Notes under the pieces: generated by a model
Seen by the model: the letters and a program-made list of their open reading frames with translations, nothing else
Told to the model about the DNA's origin: nothing
Database searches by the model: none
In this document: one piece after another, positions 22,364-53,827 of the stretch
How the letters are laid out: each line of letters starts with the position of its first letter
Position numbering within the stretch: position 1 is the first letter of the stretch
NCBI GenBank assembly: GCA_014859895.1
Contig: JACZKS010000009.1
Location: 1 to 64,000 of the forward strand
Direction of reading: 5' to 3'
Source of the DNA: Rhodospirillales bacterium
Lineage (GTDB): Bacteria > Pseudomonadota > Alphaproteobacteria > Rhodospirillales > Shumkoniaceae
Length of the DNA: 64,000 nucleotides
Translations under genes and position numbers: made by a program

Positions 22364-23107
22364 ATGAGCGGCAGACTGGCAGGAAAGACCATCTTCGCGA
22401 CGGCCTCTGGACAGGGCATCGGGCGAGCCACGGCGCTGGCTTTCGCGCGCGAGGGAGCCCAAGTGTGGGCCACCGACATCAACGAGAAATCGCTGGCCAC
22501 CCTGGCGGCCGAGAGCCCCAACATCATGACGCGGCGCCTCGACGTCACCGACCCCGCGGCCATCCAAGCGATTGCTGCCGAGCTGGGCGCCGTCGACGTC
22601 ATCTTCAACGCCGCCGGCTATGTGGCCAACGGCACCATCCTGGAATGCGACGAGAAGGACTGGGACCTTTCCTTCGACATCAACGTCAAGTCGATGTACC
22701 GCGTGATCAGGGCGTTCCTGCCGGCGATGATCGCGGCGGGCGGCGGCGCCATCGTCAACATCTCGTCGGTGGCCAGCGCCATTACCGGCGTTCCCAACCG
22801 CTTCGTCTATGGCACCACCAAGGCCGCCGTCACCGGCCTGACCAAGATGATCGCCCGCGATTTTGTGGGTAACGGCATCCGCTGCAACGCGGTGTGCCCC
22901 GGCACCATCGATTCGCCGTCCTTGAACGAACGGATGGCCGCCGCCGGCAACTACGAGGCGGTGCGCGCCAGCTTCATGGAACGCCAGCCGATGAAGCGCC
23001 TGGGCACGCCCGAGGAAGTGGCCATGCTGTGCGTCTACCTGGCCTCCGATGAGGCCGCTTTCGCCACGGGCCAGACCTGGACGCTCGACGGCGGCTGGAC
23101 GATGTGA
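22364..23107 (+). CDS. SDR family oxidoreductase
   Basis: A 247-residue SDR similar to human DHRS6/BDH2-like and 2-keto-3-deoxy-fuconate dehydrogenase-like enzymes: cofactor motif TASGQGIG, NAAGY, YGTTK active site (FVYGTTKAAV) and a short C-terminus QTWTLDGGWTM. The Asp in VWATDIN suggests NAD. ATG 22364 follows GAGGAAG. Its last 36 bases (23070-23105) recur nearly unchanged at 29250-29285, just past the next gene module. It is the last gene of the 15541 unit. Confidence 0.9.
   Translation: MSGRLAGKTIFATASGQGIGRATALAFAREGAQVWATDINEKSLATLAAESPNIMTRRLDVTDPAAIQAIAAELGAVDVIFNAAGYVANGTILECDEKDWDLSFDINVKSMYRVIRAFLPAMIAAGGGAIVNISSVASAITGVPNRFVYGTTKAAVTGLTKMIARDFVGNGIRCNAVCPGTIDSPSLNERMAAAGNYEAVRASFMERQPMKRLGTPEEVAMLCVYLASDEAAFATGQTWTLDGGWTM
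23070..23105 (+). repeat. Direct repeat, copy 1 (inside the SDR 3' end)
   Basis: These 36 bases encode the C-terminal QTWTLDGGWTM of the SDR. They match 29250-29285 at 34 of 36 positions. The two copies flank the 6.1-kb regulator/lyase/TRAP module and mark its borders. Confidence 0.9.
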
Positions 23108-23229: not shown

Positions 23230-25167
23230 TCAAAGGCGTCGGCTTCTTTTCCCGAAGGGGCGTTCGGCATCGGCGAGGTCGGTAGTGCGCCGCCAAAGCG
23301 TCGTGCGGCTTACCCCAAGCTGTCGCGCGACTCGTTCGGTATCACCCCGAAATATCTTGCAAAGTTCCTGTACAACGGCGCCATTCTTGTCAGCGCGTTG
23401 GCCGTCGGCGGTAGTTTGCGCAGCGAAATCGCGGATGAAGACATCCTTGCCGATGGCCTCCAACACAGCCATCCGGCACTCGTGCTCCGTGCAGTCGGCG
23501 CCGGTGCGCAGCAGAACCGAAATCCGTTCGATCACATTCTGGAGTTCGCGCGCGTTGCCCGGCCAGGAATAGCGGCAGATGATCTCGACTATCGTGGCGC
23601 GAAGGGGAAGAAGGCATTCGGACAAATCCGGGTGCCGGTCGGACAGAAAGTGGAAGAACAATTTGGCGATGTCGTCGTGCCTCTCCCGGAGAGGGGGAAT
23701 TTCCACATGGAGGACGTTCAGCCGGTAAAACAGGTCCTCCCGAAAAACTCCCGCCGCAACGCCGTCGCGTAAATGGCGGTTGGAGGCGGAAATGACTCGC
23801 ACATCGATCGGGATCACGCGGTCGCCGCCGAGTCGCATCACTTCCTTTTCCTGAAGAACACGCAGCAGGCGCGCCTGGATGTGCAAGGGGATTTCCGCCA
23901 CCTCATCGAGGAAAATCGTGCCCCTGTGCGCGAGTTCGAAAAGGCCCATCTTGCCGCCCTTGCGCGATCCGGTAAACGCACCCTCCTCGTATCCAAATAA
24001 CTCGCTCTCCAACAGGGATTCCGGCAACGCGGCACAATTGACGGCGACGAAGGGGCCGTCGCGATAGCTGCTTTCATTGTGGATTCCCTGGGCGAACATC
24101 TCCTTGCCGACCCCGGTTTCGCCGAAGATATAGACGCTGAGCCCGCTGTCGGCGAACAGGCGTGCGTGCGCGACGGCAACACGCATGTTGTCGTCGACCG
24201 CCACAATATCGTCGAACCGAGTTCTGGCGGACAATCCCTTGTCTGCCAGCTTCGTGCGTATCCGGCCCTCGGCCTTCTGCAACTCGGATACCTTCTGAAA
24301 TGTCGTTACCGATCCCACCGCGTCGTCACTGACCACGATTGGAATCCGGTTGACCACCACCTTGGTCCCGTTGAGTTCTCGCAGGTGTCCGATCTGCGGC
24401 TTCAGACTTGATGTCAGCTCGGTATCCCCGATATCGGGAAGCGCTCCGGACATCGGCTTGCCTATGACATCCGAACGAGGCTTGGCCAATAGTTTTTCGG
24501 CTACGGGATTATAGGCGATCACCCGGCCGCCGCTGTCCGTGGCAACGATGCCGCCCCAGCTGTAATCGAGGACCGCCTGGAAAATCATCCGGCGCTCCTT
24601 TTCGCTCCGGATTTCCAAGGCCATGACCTTGGCATCCTTGATAGCGGCGGCGATGCTCTCCGGGCCTGGGTAGACCAACACTGACGGCAATCCGGCCTTC
24701 TCGGCAAGCCGATTGGCGAGGCTCGCCCCGACCACCACGTCGACACCCGAAGTCTGGAGACCGCGGCTCAGTTCCTCCTCGTCGGCAAATGAGACCTTGA
24801 CGATATCCATGTTCAGGCTTTCGCGCAGGACATCCGCGTAGCAGCGGGCATCCTTGTAGGTCGCGATGCCGATCCGCTCGCCAAGCCGTCTCGCCTTGGC
24901 AACGGCCGTGAGAATTTCGAACAGGCCGATGTCGATGATCTTCACCGGCACGTCGGCATGTTCCTTGATGAAGGTGCCATTGGCTCCCCCGCCCAGGAAC
25001 ATTTCGACCTTGTTCTCCCGGTAGTAGCGCTTCACGGTATCGACGATCTCGCCCATCAGCCCTTCGATGAAACACAGCTCGATATCTGGATCATCGACAT
25101 AGTCGAGCGCCTGGAACGCGAGAGCGTGCAGATGGTCATAGGTCAGAAGGCCGATTCTCACCGTCAT
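23230..25167 (-). CDS. Sigma-54-dependent activator with PrpR-type sensor domain
   Basis: A 645-residue enhancer-binding protein. Residues 1-180 resemble the PrpR N-terminal sensor domain (start MTVRIGLLTYDHLHALAFQA), 195-290 are PAS-like (GGIVATDSGGRVIAYNPVAEKLL), 320-555 form the AAA+ domain with Walker A GETGVGKE (349-356), the sigma-54 contact loop GAFTGS (396-401), Walker B GTIFLDE (416-422) and R-finger region, and 611-630 is a Fis-type helix-turn-helix. It probably senses a ligand related to the lyase substrate and activates the divergent operon at 25485. ATG 25167 is chosen because the sensor domain begins there and GGAG lies upstream; longer in-frame starts add only low-complexity sequence. 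Confidence 0.92.
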   Translation of the reverse strand: MTVRIGLLTYDHLHALAFQALDYVDDPDIELCFIEGLMGEIVDTVKRYYRENKVEMFLGGGANGTFIKEHADVPVKIIDIGLFEILTAVAKARRLGERIGIATYKDARCYADVLRESLNMDIVKVSFADEEELSRGLQTSGVDVVVGASLANRLAEKAGLPSVLVYPGPESIAAAIKDAKVMALEIRSEKERRMIFQAVLDYSWGGIVATDSGGRVIAYNPVAEKLLAKPRSDVIGKPMSGALPDIGDTELTSSLKPQIGHLRELNGTKVVVNRIPIVVSDDAVGSVTTFQKVSELQKAEGRIRTKLADKGLSARTRFDDIVAVDDNMRVAVAHARLFADSGLSVYIFGETGVGKEMFAQGIHNESSYRDGPFVAVNCAALPESLLESELFGYEEGAFTGSRKGGKMGLFELAHRGTIFLDEVAEIPLHIQARLLRVLQEKEVMRLGGDRVIPIDVRVISASNRHLRDGVAAGVFREDLFYRLNVLHVEIPPLRERHDDIAKLFFHFLSDRHPDLSECLLPLRATIVEIICRYSWPGNARELQNVIERISVLLRTGADCTEHECRMAVLEAIGKDVFIRDFAAQTTADGQRADKNGAVVQELCKIFRGDTERVARQLGVSRTTLWRRTTDLADAERPFGKRSRRL

Positions 25168-25356
25168 TTGGTCGCTCCGTTCCGGCCCCATGCGCGGGGC
25201 GCGCCACAGCCGGAGAGAAACGTGAACTGGCGGCAGGTCCGGAAACCCGCCGGCAATAGTTTCACAACCATGCATGGGAACGCAAGTTCGGCCCACGGTG
25301 CGGCGCCGCCCCCCCTCCGCGGTGCGCCGGAGGGGAGCGGCGCCGGTTCCGATATA

Positions 25357-25394
25357 ATGTTTCAAAAGCCGAAGAAGCTCGTAGAATGAAACAT
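25357..25394. promoter_or_regulatory. Inverted-repeat activator site (candidate UAS)
   Basis: ATGTTTCA (25357-25364) and TGAAACAT (25387-25394) are perfect 8-bp inverted arms with a 22-nt spacer, about 30 bp centre to centre (three helical turns). The site lies roughly 60 bp upstream of the -24/-12 promoter at 25437 and between the activator gene and its likely target. This is the arrangement expected for an enhancer bound by the divergent Fis-type activator. It sits in the 317-bp gene-free region 25168-25484. Confidence 0.7.
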
Positions 25395-25436
25395 GAAGGG
25401 CGATGAGGAAACGTTGTAAATCAATATGTTACATAA

Positions 25437-25451
25437 TGGCATGGCATTTGC
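25437..25451 (+). promoter_or_regulatory. Sigma-54 (-24/-12) promoter
   Basis: TGGCATGGCATTTGC has the TGGCA and TTGC blocks at the exact consensus spacing of TGGCAYRNNNNTTGC, with GG and GC ten bases apart. Transcription would start near 25463, giving a short leader before the lyase start at 25485. The adjacent sigma-54 activator gene strengthens the call. Confidence 0.85.
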
Positions 25452-25484
25452 GTTGTTCAGGAAAACTGACCAAGGGAGATGTCC

Positions 25485-26351
25485 ATGAAGAAAACGACCC
25501 AACTGAAAGCACTCCTCCGTGACCCCAAGCTGCTGGTGGCTCCAGGAGCCTATGACGTTCTCAGTGCGAAGATCATCGCCCAGTCCGGATTCGGGGCGGT
25601 CTACATGACCGGCTACGGCACCTCAGCCAGCGTCCTGGGCAAGCCCGACGTCGGCCTGCTCACCATGACCGAGATGGTCGCCCGGGCCGCGGCGATCGCG
25701 GACGCGGTCGACGTGCCGGTTCTGGCCGACGGCGACACCGGCTACGGGAATCCGTTGAATGTGATGCGCACGGTGCGGGAATACGAGAAGGCGGGCGTCT
25801 GCGCGATCCAACTCGAAGACCAGCTATTCCCCAAGAGATGCGGGCATATGCAGGGCCGTCGGGTCATTCCGATGGAAGAGATGGTGCAGAAGATCAAGGC
25901 GGCGGCGGATACCCGGCTGGACAGCGATTTCGTCATCATCGCCCGTACCGACGCGCGCACCAGCCTCGGCCTCGACGAGGCCCTGCGGCGCGGCAAGGCG
26001 TACGAGGAAGCCGGTGCCGACGTGATCTTCATCGAATCCCCCGAAGGGGTCGAGGAGATGCGCAGGATCACGGCGACGTTCCCCGATACCCCGACGCTGG
26101 CCAACATGCTGGAAGGGGGCCGCACGCCCAACCTGACCACCGAGGAACTCGAAGCCATGGGATTCGGGATCGCCATCTTCTGCACCGGACCGCTGTATGC
26201 GGCCGCGAAGGCGGTTTCCGACTACATGGTCGAACTGAAGACCCAGAAGACTACCCAGAAGCTGCTTCCGGAACTGATCACGTTCGAGGATTTCAACTCG
26301 CTGATTGGTCTTCCGGAATATAACTCGACCGAAAAACACTACAGTTCCTGA
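25485..26351 (+). CDS. Isocitrate lyase/PEP mutase superfamily lyase (2-methylisocitrate lyase-like)
   Basis: A 288-residue TIM-barrel enzyme. It has the superfamily metal motif VLADGDTGYGN (81-90) and the catalytic loop KRCGH (117-121), whose Cys is the general acid in C-C lyases; PEP mutases and oxaloacetate decarboxylases usually lack it. A reaction splitting a substituted malate or citrate (for example 2-methylisocitrate or 2,3-dimethylmalate) into pyruvate or glyoxylate plus an acid is expected. ATG 25485 is chosen over 25479 because GGGAG is well spaced from it. It is the first gene of a sigma-54-driven operon with a TRAP transporter. No prpC or prpD is present, which argues against the standard methylcitrate cycle. 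Confidence 0.88.
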   Translation: MKKTTQLKALLRDPKLLVAPGAYDVLSAKIIAQSGFGAVYMTGYGTSASVLGKPDVGLLTMTEMVARAAAIADAVDVPVLADGDTGYGNPLNVMRTVREYEKAGVCAIQLEDQLFPKRCGHMQGRRVIPMEEMVQKIKAAADTRLDSDFVIIARTDARTSLGLDEALRRGKAYEEAGADVIFIESPEGVEEMRRITATFPDTPTLANMLEGGRTPNLTTEELEAMGFGIAIFCTGPLYAAAKAVSDYMVELKTQKTTQKLLPELITFEDFNSLIGLPEYNSTEKHYSS

Positions 26352-26386
26352 AACGAAAATATAAAATATTATAGCAGGAGGATTCT

Positions 26387-27367
26387 ATGAGTAAGGGAAA
26401 CGTCTTCCGTATTCTGTCTGCCGTATGCGCCTCTTTTCTGGCATTTTCTTTTGCCTCTGAACAGGCTCATGCCACAAAGTTAAAGCTTGGACACACGGGA
26501 TCTCTGGATCACCACTACCAGAAGGGCTCCGACATGTTCAAGAAGCGGGTCGAGGAACTGTCGGAGGGGAAGATCCAAATCATCATCTTCCCCTCCGACC
26601 AGCTCGGCAAGCAACGCGAACTCGTCGAGGGAGCGCAACTCGGTACGGTGGACATGGTGCTCACCTCCGACGTTCTCCTGTCCAGTTTCGAGCCGACGAT
26701 GGGGGCGCTCGGACTTCCGTTCCTCTTCCGCGACCTTGACCACTTGGGCAAGGTGATGGACGGCCCCATCGGAGACGAGTTGTCCAAGAACCTGGAAAAG
26801 AAAGGCCTGAAGGTTCTCGGCTATTGGGAAAACGGGTTCCGCCACATCACCAACTCCAAGCGTCCGATCGTCAAGCCAGACGACCTGAAAGGTCTGAAGA
26901 TCCGGACTCCCGAGGGCGCGGTGTTCGTCGACACGTTCAATGCCTATGGGGCGAGCGCGACCCCCATGTCGTTCGGCGAGCTGTACTCGTCGCTTCAGCT
27001 TAAGGTGGTTGACGGCCAGGAAAACCCCGTCGCCCATGTCCTGACCCAGAAATTCTACGAGGTTCAAAGCTTCCTCTCGCTTAGTTCGCACATTCATTCG
27101 GTCGAGCCCCTGCTCATCAGCACAGTGGTCTTCAAGGGACTGCCAGCGGATGAACAGAAGGTCCTTCTGCAGGCGGGCAAGGAGGTGGCCCCCTGGATCC
27201 GCGCCGAGGTGGCGCGAATTGAAGCCGAGCAATTGAAGTTCCTGGAAGGGAAGATCGCCGTCAACAAGGCCGACGCCGCGGCATTCGAGGCGGCATCGAA
27301 GCCCGTCTACGACAAGTACGGGCCGAAGTTCGGCGATCTCATCCAGCGCATCAAAGCCGTGCGGTAA
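26387..27367 (+). CDS. TRAP transporter substrate-binding protein (DctP family)
   Basis: A 326-residue periplasmic binding protein. The signal peptide ends near residue 29 (EQAHA-TK), and mature KLKLGHTGSLDHHYQKG leads into the fold. The motif DDLKGLKIRTPEGAVFVDTFNAYG holds the substrate Arg, and LQLKVVDGQENPVAHVLTQKFYEVQ the following helix. It begins 35 bp after the lyase, behind an AT-rich stretch and a strong AGGAGG site. In this module it likely imports the lyase substrate, or a precursor of it: a branched di- or tricarboxylate. The start region is noticeably less GC-rich than its neighbours. Confidence 0.93.
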   Translation: MSKGNVFRILSAVCASFLAFSFASEQAHATKLKLGHTGSLDHHYQKGSDMFKKRVEELSEGKIQIIIFPSDQLGKQRELVEGAQLGTVDMVLTSDVLLSSFEPTMGALGLPFLFRDLDHLGKVMDGPIGDELSKNLEKKGLKVLGYWENGFRHITNSKRPIVKPDDLKGLKIRTPEGAVFVDTFNAYGASATPMSFGELYSSLQLKVVDGQENPVAHVLTQKFYEVQSFLSLSSHIHSVEPLLISTVVFKGLPADEQKVLLQAGKEVAPWIRAEVARIEAEQLKFLEGKIAVNKADAAAFEAASKPVYDKYGPKFGDLIQRIKAVR

Positions 27368-27391
27368 CGCAGTCCGGCCTTGCTGGAGACC

Positions 27392-27421
27392 CCGCGGGAG
27401 CAGAGATGTCTGCTCCCGCGG
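27392..27421 (+). other. Intercistronic hairpin between dctP and dctQ
   Basis: A perfect 12-bp stem (CCGCGGGAGCAG with CTGCTCCCGCGG) around a 6-nt loop lies in the 77-bp gap after the binding-protein gene. There is no U-tract. Its position matches hairpins in the two other P-Q-M TRAP operons, suggesting 3'-end protection of the binding-protein message or partial termination. Confidence 0.65.
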
Positions 27422-27444
27422 AGGCCTTAACGGGAGGAAACATC

Positions 27445-27942
27445 ATGAGGCTTCTTGCAGACTTCAACGCGCGGATGAACCGGCTTCTGGAGTATGGCGT
27501 CATCGTCATTTTCGGGATCATGACGACGGTCATCTTTCTTCAGGTCATCTTCCGCTATGGGCTGGAGCAGTCGCTCTCCTGGTCCGAAGAGTTGGCCCGC
27601 TATCTGTTCATCTGGTTGACGTTCCTGGGAGCGAGTGTGGCAATCCGCGAAGGAACGCACATCCGGGTCACGCTGGCGGTCGACGCCATCAAACACAGGG
27701 CGACCAACCTTTCCCTGAGCCTGACCGCCAATCTTCTTGGCATCGCGTTCCTCTACATCCTCATGACGAAGGGCGTAACCGTGGCGATGCGGGTGCTGGC
27801 ACTCGAGCAGATCTCGCCGACCATGGAATTTCTGCCGATCGGGGTGATCTATCTGGCGATCCCGATAGGTTGCTTCTTCATGATCCTGAATCTTCTGGAA
27901 CAGTCTTACCGTCAATGCACGGACCTGGTCCACGCACGTTAG
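27445..27942 (+). CDS. TRAP transporter small permease (DctQ)
   Basis: A 165-residue four-helix inner-membrane protein. The signature SLSWSEELARYLFIWLTFLGASVAIREGTHIRV is a textbook DctQ block. ATG 27445 follows GGGAGGAAAC; an upstream ATG at 27406 lies in the hairpin region and is not used. It ends six bases before dctM. Confidence 0.94.
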   Translation: MRLLADFNARMNRLLEYGVIVIFGIMTTVIFLQVIFRYGLEQSLSWSEELARYLFIWLTFLGASVAIREGTHIRVTLAVDAIKHRATNLSLSLTANLLGIAFLYILMTKGVTVAMRVLALEQISPTMEFLPIGVIYLAIPIGCFFMILNLLEQSYRQCTDLVHAR

Positions 27943-27948
27943 GGGGCG

Positions 27949-29229
27949 ATGATGGGTATCACCTTATTCGCAGCGTTCTTCGCGTTCGTCGTCCTGGGCG
28001 TGCCGATCGCGATCGCACTGGGCCTCTCGGGGGTCGTCGCCCTGGCACTGCACAGCCAGGTCCCTATCATGGTCATCGTTCAAAAAGTCTATGGCGGCGT
28101 CGATTCCTTCACCTTGATGGCCATTCCTTTTTTCATCCTGGCCGGCAACGTCATGAGTTCTGGGGGCGTCTCGCAACGCCTCGTCGACTTGGCCAGTTCC
28201 ATCCTCGGCCGAATGCCCGGCGGGTTGGCGCAGGTGACGACCGCGGCCTGCACGTTCTTCGGGGCAATTTCCGGATCGGCCCCGGCAACGACGGCGGCCA
28301 TTGGCTCGGTAATGGTCAAGCCGATGGTCGACAATGGGTACGACCGGGCTTTTGCGGGTGCGGTGGCCGCGGCATCGGGAACCATCGGCCTACTGATTCC
28401 CCCCAGCATTACCCTGGTGATCTATGGAGTAATCACCGGTGTGTCGATCGGCAAACTGTTCATGGGCGGCATCCTGCCCGGGCTGATGATGAGCCTGACG
28501 CTTATGACGGTGAACCATGTGATCTCGACGCGCAAAGGCTATCGAGGCGGCGAGCCTTCATCCCTCAAAAGGATCCTTCATGCAGGGCACCGCAGCATCT
28601 TCGCCCTCCTCATGCCGGTGATCATTCTCGGCGGCATTTACGGTGGCGTTTTCACGCCGACCGAGGCGGCGGTGGTGGCGGTATTCTACGGTCTGTTCGT
28701 CGGCTTTTCGATCCACCGTGAATTGAAAATCGGCGATCTGCCGTCCATTCTGCTGGAAACTGGCAAGAGCACCGCGGTCATCATGTTCCTGATCGCCACC
28801 GCGCACATCTTCAGCTACCTGCTTGCCAGCGAGCAGATCCCGGCCAAGCTGACGGTGGCAATGCTTGAGGTCTCCACGGACCCTCACATCCTGCTGCTGA
28901 TGATTGTGTTGTCGCTGCTGGTGGTCGGCACATTTCTCGACAATGCGGTTGCCGTGGTGCTGATGACGCCGATCTTTTATCCTGTCATCATGCAGGCGGG
29001 CATCGATCCCCTCTACTTCGGCGTCCTCATGATCCTGGTGTTGGCCATCGGGCAGGTCACGCCGCCGGTGGGCTTGTGCCTGTTCGTCGCCTGCAACATC
29101 GCCAAAGTGGGAATCGAAAACCTGTCTTGGAAAAGCGTTCCCTATATCTTCGCGCTGATGGCGGTGATCGCCGTCCTGATCATCGTTCCCGACATCATCC
29201 TGCTCATACCGAGCAGCATGGATTTCTGA
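27949..29229 (+). CDS. TRAP transporter large permease (DctM)
   Basis: A 426-residue polytopic permease with SFTLMAIPFFILAGNVMSSGG, FGAISGSAPATTAAIGSVM and GQVTPPVGLCLFVACNIAKVG blocks. Two tandem ATGs (27949 and 27952) are possible starts; the GGGGG ribosome site is better spaced for the second. It ends the sigma-54-controlled operon, and 20 bp after its stop the second copy of the SDR-derived repeat begins. Confidence 0.94.
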   Translation: MMGITLFAAFFAFVVLGVPIAIALGLSGVVALALHSQVPIMVIVQKVYGGVDSFTLMAIPFFILAGNVMSSGGVSQRLVDLASSILGRMPGGLAQVTTAACTFFGAISGSAPATTAAIGSVMVKPMVDNGYDRAFAGAVAAASGTIGLLIPPSITLVIYGVITGVSIGKLFMGGILPGLMMSLTLMTVNHVISTRKGYRGGEPSSLKRILHAGHRSIFALLMPVIILGGIYGGVFTPTEAAVVAVFYGLFVGFSIHRELKIGDLPSILLETGKSTAVIMFLIATAHIFSYLLASEQIPAKLTVAMLEVSTDPHILLLMIVLSLLVVGTFLDNAVAVVLMTPIFYPVIMQAGIDPLYFGVLMILVLAIGQVTPPVGLCLFVACNIAKVGIENLSWKSVPYIFALMAVIAVLIIVPDIILLIPSSMDF

Positions 29230-29249
29230 GGGCGGCACAAGGGGAGAAC

Positions 29250-29285
29250 GCCAGACCTGGACGCTCGACGGCGGTTGGACCATGT
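29250..29285 (+). pseudogene. SDR 3'-end remnant; direct repeat, copy 2
   Basis: These 36 bases encode QTWTLDGGWTM followed by TAG and match 23070-23105 at 34 of 36 positions. No SDR body precedes them: sequence upstream is the end of dctM. They are therefore a duplicated or orphaned SDR tail that marks the right border of the 6.1-kb module. Confidence 0.85.
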
Positions 29286-29297
29286 AGAAAATTTTAA

Positions 29298-29380
29298 TTC
29301 GGGGACACCATATTTAATTCACATTCTTCGCCCTTGGCAACGAACGAAACCTCTTGTGAATTAAATATGGTGTCCCCGAA
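29298..29380. repeat. Long perfect inverted repeat (REP/MITE-like element)
   Basis: Two perfect 26-bp arms (29298-29323 and 29355-29380) enclose a 31-nt loop. The arms contain GGGGACACCATATTTAATTC, a motif I associate with palindromic elements near REP-type (Y1) transposases in proteobacteria. The element is much more AT-rich than its surroundings, has no ORF, and sits 12 bp from the SDR remnant. It may be a non-autonomous mobile element; it could also act as a terminator for dctM. Confidence 0.75.
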
Positions 29381-29415
29381 ATTGGAGCGGGCGGACGCAG
29401 AAAAGGGATCTGTTC

Positions 29416-30363
29416 CTACCCCCGCATCTCGGGCACCGGGGTCGGCAGCGGTTGGCCGGCGAAGAAGGCGTCGAGGTTGGAGCGGCAGAGTTCGGCCATG
29501 CGCCGGCGCGTCTCGTGGGTGCCGCTGCCGCGATGGGGCATCAGCACCACGTTGTCCATCGCCCACAGATCGGCCGGCACATGGGGCTCGTTCTCGAAGA
29601 CGTCGAGGCCGGCTCCGGCGATGCGGCCCTCCTTCAGCGCCGCGATCAGCGCCTTCTCGTCGACGATGGTGCCGCGCGCGGCGTTGACCAGGAAGCCCTC
29701 CGGCCCCAGCGCGTCGAGGACCTTGGCATTGACCAGATGCCGGGTGGTGGCGCCGCCCTGGCAGGCGACCACCAGCAGGTCGCTGGCGGCGGCCAGCGAC
29801 ACCGGGTCGGGATGGAACGCGTAAGGCACATCCTGTTTGGCGGGGTCGGTATAGGCGACGACGGCGCCGCAGGCTTCCAGCCGCCTGGCGATGGCCTTGC
29901 CGATGCGCCCCAGGCCGATGATGCCGGCCGTCTTGCCGATGATGCTGTTGGCCAGAAGCTCGCGCGGCTCGGTCGGCCAGCCGCCGGTGCGCACCAGCCG
30001 GTCGAGCACGACCAGCTTACGCGTCACGGCCAGCGCCAGCAGAAGCGCGGTGGTCGCCGTCTCGTCGGTCAGCACGTTCGGCGTATGGGTGACCATGACG
30101 CCCCGCGCCTTGGCAGCCTGAACCTCGATGCCGTCGTAGCCGACGCCGAAATTGGCGATGATTTTCAGGTTCGGCAGGGCCGCGATGTGCTTTTCGCGGA
30201 AAACGCTTTCGCCCTTGGTGACGACCGCGGTGATGGTCTCCGGATCGAGGCCGGGCACGTCGGCCGGGCTGTCGAAGCCGGTCATGTCGAACATCTCGAA
30301 GCGGCCGTCGAGGACGGCCCGCATTTCGGGCTGGATGCCTGGGGCGAGGAGAATCCTGTGCAT
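29416..30363 (-). CDS. D-2-hydroxyacid dehydrogenase (glyoxylate/hydroxypyruvate reductase-like)
   Basis: A 315-residue NAD(P)-dependent dehydrogenase. The Rossmann motif GIIGLGRIGKAIARRL with catalytic Arg in VNAARGTIVDE, Glu in the FENEPHVP segment and His in VLMPHRGSGT matches the GhrB/GyaR group. The active-site His lies in MPHRGS rather than the usual PHxGSAT, still keeping His. GGAGG precedes ATG 30363. It likely reduces glyoxylate, hydroxypyruvate or a 2-keto sugar acid. It is upstream of nothing else on its strand before the repeat element, and follows the aldo/keto reductase by 71 bp. Confidence 0.9.
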   Translation of the reverse strand: MHRILLAPGIQPEMRAVLDGRFEMFDMTGFDSPADVPGLDPETITAVVTKGESVFREKHIAALPNLKIIANFGVGYDGIEVQAAKARGVMVTHTPNVLTDETATTALLLALAVTRKLVVLDRLVRTGGWPTEPRELLANSIIGKTAGIIGLGRIGKAIARRLEACGAVVAYTDPAKQDVPYAFHPDPVSLAAASDLLVVACQGGATTRHLVNAKVLDALGPEGFLVNAARGTIVDEKALIAALKEGRIAGAGLDVFENEPHVPADLWAMDNVVLMPHRGSGTHETRRRMAELCRSNLDAFFAGQPLPTPVPEMRG

Positions 30364-30434
30364 GACGTTACCTCCGCAGTGTTCGGTTGGACCGGCGCCC
30401 CATCGGCACAGGTCGATAGGAAGGGGCCGCGCTT

Positions 30435-31391
30435 TCAGCCGTCAAGGCCGAACCCCGATTTCCAAAGATCAAAAGCCCGTTTGACCAACGAGGGGTCGGG
30501 CAGGTCGCCCGCCACCGCGGCGGCGATCCCATCGACCTGGCCCGGAGAATTGAGCCCGACGATGACGCTTCCCACCAGAGGCGAAGCCAGGGCGAAACGC
30601 ACCGCGAAGGCCGTCATAGAGCCGCCGATCTCGGCGGCGAAGATTTCCGCGATACGGGCGCGGCGGGCCAGATCCTTGGCGAACTTGGGCTCCTGGAAAC
30701 GGTCATCCGGCTTCATGCGGGCAGGATCGCGGGCGTCGGTAAGAATGCCCTGGTAGAGCGGCCGGATGCAAAGGAACCCCATGCCACGGCGCTCCATCTC
30801 GGGGAAAAGCTCGGCCATCTCCATCTCGATGGGATTGTAGTAGGCGATGATGCCGGCGAAGCGCCCCGTCCCGATAGCGGCCTTGGCGCACGGCACGGTG
30901 TAGGGGAAGGTCATCAGATGGCCGACCTTGCCCTCGCTTTTCAACTTTTCAAAGGCTGCCCAGACGTCGTCCATGACCCCCGGCAGCATGGGCAGACGCA
31001 GCCCATCCTCGTTGGGCTCCGAGCGCCACATCCATTGCAGGACCGCGATGCGCTCGGCATGCAGGTCCTTGAGCGCCTCCTCGATACGCAGGCGGAACTT
31101 GGCCGGATCGAAGCGGCCGCCGTCCTTGAAATCGGGGACCGGCACCTTGATGACGTGATGGACGTCGTGACGCTTCGGGTGGTCCTTCAGCACCCTTTCC
31201 ATCATCCAGCGGGTTTCGTACTCGTAGCTGGAATGCAGGAAGTTGACACCGGCGTCCAGCGCCGCGCGCAGGGCGGCCTCCCCGGCCTTCGATTTGGCGT
31301 CGTCGGCCGGGCTTTTGGTTGCGGCCCGCATGGGACCCAGGCAGATGACGGAAACGTCGAGGTCGGTACCAGCGAGGCGACGATATTTCAT
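30435..31391 (-). CDS. Aldo/keto reductase family protein
   Basis: A 318-residue TIM-barrel protein starting MKYRRLAGTDLDVSVICLGPM at ATG 31391, preceded by AGGGGAAGGGGG. AKR hallmarks are present: the start motif LAGTDLDVS, an Asp-Tyr-like active-site area altered to NFLHSSYEYE, and the distal ASPLVGSVIVGLNSPGQVDG cofactor motif. The usual D-T-A-x-x-Y is replaced by H-S-S-Y-E-Y, keeping a Tyr. It probably acts on a sugar aldehyde. It lies 16 bp downstream of a Gfo/Idh/MocA gene and should be co-transcribed with it. Confidence 0.87.
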   Translation of the reverse strand: MKYRRLAGTDLDVSVICLGPMRAATKSPADDAKSKAGEAALRAALDAGVNFLHSSYEYETRWMMERVLKDHPKRHDVHHVIKVPVPDFKDGGRFDPAKFRLRIEEALKDLHAERIAVLQWMWRSEPNEDGLRLPMLPGVMDDVWAAFEKLKSEGKVGHLMTFPYTVPCAKAAIGTGRFAGIIAYYNPIEMEMAELFPEMERRGMGFLCIRPLYQGILTDARDPARMKPDDRFQEPKFAKDLARRARIAEIFAAEIGGSMTAFAVRFALASPLVGSVIVGLNSPGQVDGIAAAVAGDLPDPSLVKRAFDLWKSGFGLDG

Positions 31392-31407
31392 GATGGCCCC
31401 CTTCCCC

Positions 31408-32442
31408 TCAGTCGTGAACGACGTTGACCGGCCGCCCCTCGGCCGACGCCTGCAGGATGGCGTCGATGAAGCGGTGGGTGCGCAGCGCAACCTCGCCGCT
31501 GACCAGGGGATCGCGACCCTCTTCCAGGGCATCCAGGAAGTCCCGGAGAACTTCCCGATGATGGTCGTGTGGGAAGGCCATGGGGTCGGCCCCGGTGCCC
31601 CCCACCGCGGTGTCGGCTTCGACGGTTTCACCGCTGCCGTCGTGGTAGGAAACCTTAAGCTCGGTGCCGGTGATCAGCGCCGAGCCCTTCTCGCAGAAGA
31701 ACTGCATGCGTTCGGGGAAGCCGGGATAGGCGGTGGTGGTGGCATCCACCACGCCGATGGCACCGTCTTCGAAGCGCACCGCGGCAGCGACGATGTCTTC
31801 GGTTTCCATCTGGTGTACCGGGCTGGTCCTGGCGTAGCCGGTGACCTCGACGGGCCGGGCGGTCAGGGACAGGAAGACGTCGAGCGGATGGATGCCCTGA
31901 GTCAGGAGCACGCCGCCGCCGTCGCGCAGCTTGTCGCCGCGCCCGGGCTGGTCGTAATAGCCCTTCTGCGGCCGCCAGACGGGAATGAACACCGAGGCGC
32001 CGACAATCTTTCCCAGGCGGCCGGAGGCCAGGATCTCGCGCAGCCTGATGCCCGGCCGCCGGTGGCGGTGCTGGAGCACGATGCCGAGGCGCACCCCCGC
32101 CTGGCGGCAGATGCCGATCATCTCGGCGGCCCGCTCGCTAGTAATCTCCAGCGGCTTTTCCAGCAAGATGTGCTTGCCGGCCTTGGCAAAACGGGAAACC
32201 AGGTCGAGGTGGCTGTCCGGCGTGGTCAGGATCAGCGCGCAATCGACGCTGGGGTCCTTCAGCGCCACCTCGAAATCGGCGGCCAGCGGAAACGGAAACT
32301 TCTCGCCGAACGCCTTGCGCCGCCCTTCCGAGCGGTTGCAGGCATAGGCGACCTCGACGCGGTCGGTAAGGTCGAGCAGGCTCTTGGCATGCGGGGTCAC
32401 GGCCATGCCGAGTCCGATGATGGCGATGCGATGTCTTTTCAC
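31408..32442 (-). CDS. Gfo/Idh/MocA family NAD(P)-dependent oxidoreductase
   Basis: A 344-residue dehydrogenase: Rossmann motif IAIIGLGMAVTPHAKSL, CALILTTPDSHLDLV and catalytic-lysine motif EKPLE (ILLEKPLEITSE), then DGGGVLLTQGIHPLDVFL with the active-site His. It heads a three-gene minus-strand unit with an aldo/keto reductase and a 2-hydroxyacid dehydrogenase. It is divergent from the CoA-transferase operon across 219 bp, which should contain promoters for both. The substrate is probably a sugar or sugar acid. Confidence 0.9.
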   Translation of the reverse strand: MKRHRIAIIGLGMAVTPHAKSLLDLTDRVEVAYACNRSEGRRKAFGEKFPFPLAADFEVALKDPSVDCALILTTPDSHLDLVSRFAKAGKHILLEKPLEITSERAAEMIGICRQAGVRLGIVLQHRHRRPGIRLREILASGRLGKIVGASVFIPVWRPQKGYYDQPGRGDKLRDGGGVLLTQGIHPLDVFLSLTARPVEVTGYARTSPVHQMETEDIVAAAVRFEDGAIGVVDATTTAYPGFPERMQFFCEKGSALITGTELKVSYHDGSGETVEADTAVGGTGADPMAFPHDHHREVLRDFLDALEEGRDPLVSGEVALRTHRFIDAILQASAEGRPVNVVHD

Positions 32443-53107: not shown

Positions 53108-53827
53108 TCAATCCTCGTGGAACTGGGCGCGTCCCATCTCGATGTGATGGCGCATCGCCTCGACCGCCATCGCCGGTGAGCGCTTTTCGATCGCTTCGAG
53201 GATGCGCAGATGTTCCTTGGCCGCCTCCTGGGGCCGGCCGTGCTTGTAAGTGCCGTGCTGCTGTGAGACCCGCTGCACGTCCGCCTGGATCAGGCCGATG
53301 AGAGACCGCAGCAGCACATTGTTGGTGGCCTCCGCCACGCGAATGTGGAACAGGCTGTCCTCCCCCAGCGTATCGCCGCCCTTCTGCACCTGCTCGGCCA
53401 AGTCCTCGCAGGCCTTGCGGATGTCGGCGATCTGTTCCGGCGTCGCCCTTGTCGCCGCCAATTCCGCGGAGAAGATCTCCAGCACGCCGCGAACCTCCGT
53501 CAGCATCTGCGGCGTCAGGTCTTCCATCACCAGTACGCCCCGGACCAGCCGCTCAAGCGTCTGGACGCTGATCTTCTCGACGACCGTTCCGCTTTGCGGA
53601 AAGGTCCGGACGATGCCGTAAAGCTCCAGTTTGTGAAGCGCCTCGCGCACATGGGCGCGGCCCACCTCGAACCGCTCCATGAGAGCCCGCTCCGACGGAA
53701 GCCGTTGGCCGGGCTTCAGCACGCCGTTCGTCACCAGCTGGCTGACCTGTTCGATAATGACGTCGGCTGGGCGCTTCACACGGATGCGCTTCAGATACCC
53801 GCACACGTCCGTGTCATCGTCAAGCAT
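53108..53827 (-). CDS. FadR/GntR family transcriptional regulator (FCD domain)
   Basis: A 239-residue regulator. The N-terminal winged helix (about 20-85: LKPGQRLPSERALMERFEVGRAHVREALHKLELYG is the family pattern) is followed by an all-helical FCD ligand domain with metal-binding His in FHIRVAEATNN and at the RHHIEMG end. FCD regulators sense small carboxylates. GGAGG precedes ATG 53827. It is divergent from the TRAP operon at 54058, the expected target, and converges with cysNC, with only 17 bp between stops. Confidence 0.93.
   Translation of the reverse strand: MLDDDTDVCGYLKRIRVKRPADVIIEQVSQLVTNGVLKPGQRLPSERALMERFEVGRAHVREALHKLELYGIVRTFPQSGTVVEKISVQTLERLVRGVLVMEDLTPQMLTEVRGVLEIFSAELAATRATPEQIADIRKACEDLAEQVQKGGDTLGEDSLFHIRVAEATNNVLLRSLIGLIQADVQRVSQQHGTYKHGRPQEAAKEHLRILEAIEKRSPAMAVEAMRHHIEMGRAQFHED

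Follow-up and report, generated by a model that had tools for sequence, protein, structure and literature searches.

What kind of element is the hairpin-forming segment at positions 29298–29380, and what does it mark between the two convergent genes that enclose it? The window, which is the whole 64,000-nt stretch of DNA analysed here, carries to the left of the segment a gene that we take to be DctM-like, as in the initial annotation (27949–29229, + strand, 426 aa), and to its right a convergent gene that is presumably 2-hydroxyacid dehydrogenase-like, as judged from its sequence (29416–30363, − strand, 315 aa). The initial annotation had described two perfect 26-bp arms around a 31-nt loop, and we confirmed this geometry with 100% complementarity. 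The left arm (29298–29323, + strand, 26 nt) has the family word GGGGACACCATAYTTAATT, the loop spans 29324–29354, and the right arm (29355–29380, − strand) is the perfect reverse complement of the left arm. The palindrome is longer than 26 bp when the lack of a single T on its left side is tolerated; the family copies read AATTTCGGGG, compared with TAATTCGGGG at the left side in the window.

We searched the window for perfect inverted repeats with arms no shorter than 20 bp and a gap of at most 60, and the element at 29298–29380 was the sole hit. In 50 simulated windows (first-order Markov), inverted repeats of even 14 bp were hit 8 times in total. These results indicate that the hairpin is not due to chance. 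The G+C content is 43% in the 83-bp element and 64% in the window. The RNA fold of the 121-nt segment 29280–29400 had a free energy of −51.7 kcal/mol (z = −7.23), and none of 200 shuffles was as good. Four micro-RNA models of Rfam matched weakly, with scores far under the gathering scores (best 27.5 vs 90); we took these as chance scores for a long hairpin and rejected a micro-RNA identity. A plasmid search with the element gave no match, and no exact match to CGGGGACACCATAYTTAATT was found in viral contigs. Among the matches listed for short words of the core sequence in the literature, the titles were unrelated and look like chance matches to primers or probes.

We searched the assembly of the window's own genome (5.10 Mb, 197 contigs) with the arm CGGGGACACCATATTTAATT at up to 3 mismatches, using the pattern read backwards as the control. 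The arm word occurred 41 times forward and 40 times reverse, and the control gave 0 and 0. When the words were read with their flanks, they resolved into 41 sites, 37 of which hold an inverted pair; at least one further copy (C81:1024–1097) appeared under a looser pattern and is left out of the 41-site counts. The proposal of a multi-copy, REP/MITE-like repeat in the initial annotation is supported by these numbers, and the genome-wide copies exclude a single-copy sequence conserved merely as the dctM terminator. The spacing between the 20-nt arm words of the 37 pairs fell into two classes, 5–8 nt (13 pairs) and 37–43 nt (19 pairs), with −5, 13, 13, 18, and 32 in the other five; the window copy, with 39 nt, belongs to the long loop class. 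Variants common to both arms occupied 60 of 999 cells, compared with 17.9 ± 3.8 (maximum 34) in 1000 re-pairings, and single-arm changes occupied 54 cells, compared with the 133.8 expected from re-pairing. Several sites show extra partial arms or a nested look; at C13:58649–58761 and C26:95144–95243, for example, concentric partial arms surround a full hairpin, which gives the impression of one copy nested in the middle of another.

According to a crude gene call, the 41 copies lie between convergent genes (17), between tandem genes (14), between divergent genes (3), inside a called frame (4), or in unclear positions (3). A similar placement preference is reported for REPs in PMC3733652. Two causes of such a preference are conceivable, namely selection that removes insertions from promoters and a role at the ends of transcripts. 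The latter role underlies the alternative that the element is a terminator or transcript-stabilising hairpin common to dctM and the dehydrogenase gene and kept for that reason, its repetition being secondary. The position between convergent genes, a placement called for 17 of the 41 copies, and the very stable hairpin fit this reading, as does the comparison with G001, the sole genome of the same genus among the 60 that we searched (the window's own included): in G001, dctM is followed by a distinct G+C-rich hairpin with TTTT that the window is missing and that the terminator scan did not flag. However, direct reading shows no T-run close after the stem on either strand, and the scan found no terminator, although its loop range of 3–8 nt makes it blind to a hairpin with a 31-nt loop. 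Nor does a terminator role account for the roughly forty copies, which are scattered over unrelated places, or for the link to the transposase gene described below; we regard this reading as unlikely.

The initial annotation had suggested that a transposase encoded elsewhere might mobilise the element and had advised a look for a Y1 gene, and the genome has one such gene. Pfam Y1_Tnp gave one match in the genome (48.2 bits, cut-off 23), a Y1/HUH gene at C183:52907–53581 with an open frame of 225 codons from a TTG inside a repeat; the ATG six codons past the TTG is the likelier start. The family profile of this transposase matched E. coli TnpAREP 4ER8 (3.7e-8), and the alignment pairs the HUH histidines as well as the tyrosine of the two. 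The gene is flanked by variants of the repeat in opposed orientation, one just ahead of the transposase start (C183:52889–52908) and one 4 nt past the stop codon (53589–53633), an arrangement that fits a TIRtron carrying its TIRYT gene. G001 has a 91%-identical transposase at the corresponding locus. The C-terminal tail is conserved in the proteins of the family, and helix-turn-helix models of Pfam had no match at E values up to 1 in 17 family proteins (set A1).

The terminal repeats of TIRtrons/TIRYTs share GGGGWSAS according to Di Nocera, De Gregorio and Rocco (2013, PMC3733652). The arm in the window, GGGGACAC, fits this motif. The repeats of the transposase gene itself are variants (GGGGACGCCTTA) that read GGGGACGC and are one position off GGGGWSAS, which counts against assignment to the TIRtrons. 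Two further observations count the same way: the transposase protein scored 69.5 bits against the NCBIfam model REP_Tyr_transpos (NF047646), under its cut-off of 80, and the 20-nt arms are identical in just 21 of the 37 pairs, single-arm changes being common.

We compared the distribution of the arm pattern and the transposase among the 60 genomes. The arm pattern was found in 7 genomes and the transposase protein in 21. Three of the 7 (G037, G040, and G051) yielded no transposase match, and the arm pattern was missing from 17 of the 21 that have the protein; both mismatches count against the TIRtron reading, and they indicate that the link between arm pattern and transposase is not one to one. 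In a collection of species genomes, at least 80 homologous transposase loci were found; of the 80 listed, 64 offered sufficient flanking sequence for the test and the other 16 were left out. We looked for GGGGWSAS within 150 bp upstream and, inverted, within 250 bp downstream, with one shuffle per flank as the control. Among the matches listed, the motif was present upstream at 44 of 64 loci, downstream at 40, and on both sides at 32, compared with 1, 2, and 0, respectively, in the shuffled flanks; its absence from one or both sides at the other 32 listed loci is again counted against the TIRtron reading. The hosts of the listed loci, as given in the record titles, include Proteobacteria, Desulfobacterales, Planctomycetota, and Armatimonadota.

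We compared the 41 sites with the loci fetched from G001. Both flanks were found in one locus for 21 sites, one flank for 6, and neither for 14. The repeat is also present in G001 at 20 of the 21 two-flank sites (17 by alignment and 3 by position); the exception is C32:55971, where the pair is untidy. This count favours shared sites because nearly all of the fetched G001 loci had been picked for having repeats. Three of the 14 sites with neither flank in those loci (C87:13212, C10:84449, and C183:25079) were looked up directly in G001. C87:13212 is filled in the window's genome and cleanly empty in G001. At C10:84449, G001 has about 5 kb of other DNA in the place of the repeat. For C183:25079, G001 has the right flank with a different repeat variant, and the left flank lacks a close counterpart. 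The direct look-ups and the flank comparison together indicate that the copies differ between the two genomes, with about half of them shared. In this last case, C183:25079–25126 and G001 C21 (from about 19690; approximately 1446–1520 of locus L271) join the same right flank to two different repeat variants, so that one repeat would have replaced the other or two insertions would have hit the same spot. The initial annotation had suggested a look for target-site duplications, and no clean one was seen at the single clean empty site (C87:13212 vs G001). To our knowledge, Y1 enzymes are not expected to produce such duplications, so this observation decides nothing. The one filled/empty pair is an indirect sign, at the level of sequence comparison, of movement of the repeats, for which the transposase would be responsible.

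In regards to the junction itself, the initial annotation had placed an orphan SDR tail 12 bp from the element and had taken this point as the inferred recombination border of a module. The tail is real as sequence: 29250–29285 (+ strand, 36 bp) is 94% identical to 23070–23105 (+ strand), the tail of a gene that we named SDR-type by reading its sequence, and 97% identical over 34 bp to G001 C11:30143–30176. The adjacency also held; the distance did not, since the TAG lies at 29285–29287 and leaves 10 bp. The copy belongs to a reworked junction outside the repeat. It lies 6.2 kb from the gene that it resembles, and G001 lacks it at the corresponding position; a duplication with a later deletion could account for its origin.

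The alignment with G001 C11, the outer limits of which are those of the stretch fetched, covers window positions 23324–29238 (5.9 kb at 94.8%) and 29298–32248 (2.95 kb at 89.6%) in the same order. The G001 repeat at the dehydrogenase side is identical to that of the window at 80 of 83 positions, all three differences being in the loop, and a second G001 copy at the junction is less like the repeat of the window. The same order and the 80/83 identity indicate that both the gene order and the repeat probably predate the split of the two genomes, as judged from these alignments, and that the repeat was probably not left behind when a module was recently inserted. The proposal that the dct module was inserted at a break point marked by the element draws on the 36-bp direct repeat of the SDR tail, which brackets the dct region (23070–23105 and 29250–29285). 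However, the order of the dct and dehydrogenase genes is unchanged in G001, where the same side carries a near-identical repeat and no tail copy follows dctM, which makes this proposal extremely improbable. The interpretation in the initial annotation is thus partly supported, being right about the kind of element and wrong about a simple break point.

The junction has been reworked, though the gene order was kept. In G001, dctM is followed by the G+C-rich hairpin, a second repeat in the same orientation, an MNT/HepT-like gene pair, and then the shared repeat; the window has instead about 60 bp that include the 36-bp SDR-tail copy. The G001 pair between the two repeats (G001:C11:22917–23775; L117 2918–3776) encodes a nucleotidyltransferase-like protein (PF01909, 1.4e-8) and a HepT-like protein (PF01934, 5.2e-15). 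A search with the HepT-like protein gave no match in the window's genome, G002, and G004 and one match (68%) in G003. No repeats were found near dctM-like or dehydrogenase-like homologues at five of five loci (two in G003 and one each in G002, G004, and G005), which are DNA matches of 69–77% and may not be corresponding genes.

These differences allow the reading that the repeats are recombination points, at which the joining of neighbouring copies, by homology or by the transposase, lets cassettes come and go, at this junction included. The MNT/HepT-like pair lies between two same-orientation copies in G001, where the window has one copy, and its HepT-like protein is the one without a match in the window's genome. 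The reverse is seen at C153 (G000:C153:45531–48821; L034 832–4122), where the window's genome has an operon, named DctPQM-like by reading, between two copies and G001 has one copy; the 5 kb of other DNA in G001 at C10 could be taken in the same sense. However, the approximately 60 bp to the left of the window repeat are unlike the sequence to the left of either G001 copy, so that a simple deletion fails; the two C153 copies differ in arm and size; and G001 has no repeat at C10. Four other close pairs of repeats, at C160 and C91 and at C4 and C16 of G001, enclose ordinary-looking chromosomal genes, as judged from open frames, and we rejected cassette flanking as a rule on this ground. We consider recombination between copies quite unlikely as the explanation of the element. 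A broader idea treats TIRYT-type hairpins as docking points where, through homology or transposase end-joining, species of the genus come to differ by the gain and loss of cassettes; it is very unlikely, as is the casting of the MNT/HepT-like pair at the junction, the TRAP-type operon at C153, and the 5 kb at C10 as such cassettes.

With the copy number, the arm symmetry, the association with the transposase in this and other genomes, and one filled/empty pair observed, it is highly probable that the element is a non-autonomous, hairpin-forming miniature element of the TIRtron family, built from the terminal repeats of a Y1/HUH gene. It would consist of two inverted copies of the terminal repeat of the transposase gene with no gene between them, and the single Y1/HUH transposase of the genome would be a TIRYT, i.e. 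a RAYT-like enzyme. We infer the recognition, the cutting, and the single-strand route as follows. The arms would fold when one strand is exposed, e.g. as the lagging-strand template; the transposase would recognise the folded stem containing GGGGAC and cut with its tyrosine; and the cut piece would insert elsewhere, mostly between genes. The repeat in the window is probably one of about 40 copies spread via this single-strand-cutting transposase. The window copy is probably an insertion that has long been settled between its convergent neighbours rather than a sign that a module arrived recently, which is a deflating result for this locus. Apart from possibly forming a hairpin where transcripts end, it need not serve any function today.

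Elements of this kind have been described, though little studied, and the present one is unsurprising. It resembles the MITEs of transposon families that make target-site duplications in being short and non-autonomous and in sharing inverted ends with a gene-carrying element. It differs from them in that its enzyme would be of the Y1 rather than the DDE type, and the one clean site shows no target duplication. Compared with the REPINs/RAYTs as described in PMC3116915 and PMC8266576, it shares an inverted pair with a variable spacer in one hairpin, a single-copy HUH/Y1 enzyme, and a mostly extragenic location. In contrast to REPINs as described there, the arms are not imperfect palindromes tagged with GTAG, and the repeat occupies about 40 sites rather than hundreds of REP copies. 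By reading, none of the 41 sites has a GTAG at the base of its arms, and the arms pair with each other. In the classification of PMC6006769, TnpAREP subclass 2.1 takes in 20 of 26 TIRYTs, and GGGG[AT][CG]A[CG] is quoted for most TIRYT repeats; the subclass 2.1 TIRYTs are given a C-terminal helix-turn-helix-like domain, whereas the 17 proteins of set A1 have no such Pfam match at E values up to 1, although their C-terminal tail is conserved. The likeness is to the TIRtrons/TIRYTs of PMC3733652, where a Y1 gene lies between long GGGGWSAS inverted repeats and moderately abundant dispersed copies, often dimers, carry no GTAG tag. The 2013 paper also asked for mobility data. TIRYT repeat families are hardly studied, and this genus offers a usable system for the mobility question, since a single transposase gene occurs there together with about 40 natural copies, at least one of them at a filled/empty site. 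Relative to the TIRtrons of PMC3733652, the present case adds a new host and a new repeat family with two loop-size classes and arms that vary together, as well as a filled/empty site and a comparison of corresponding sites in a relative.
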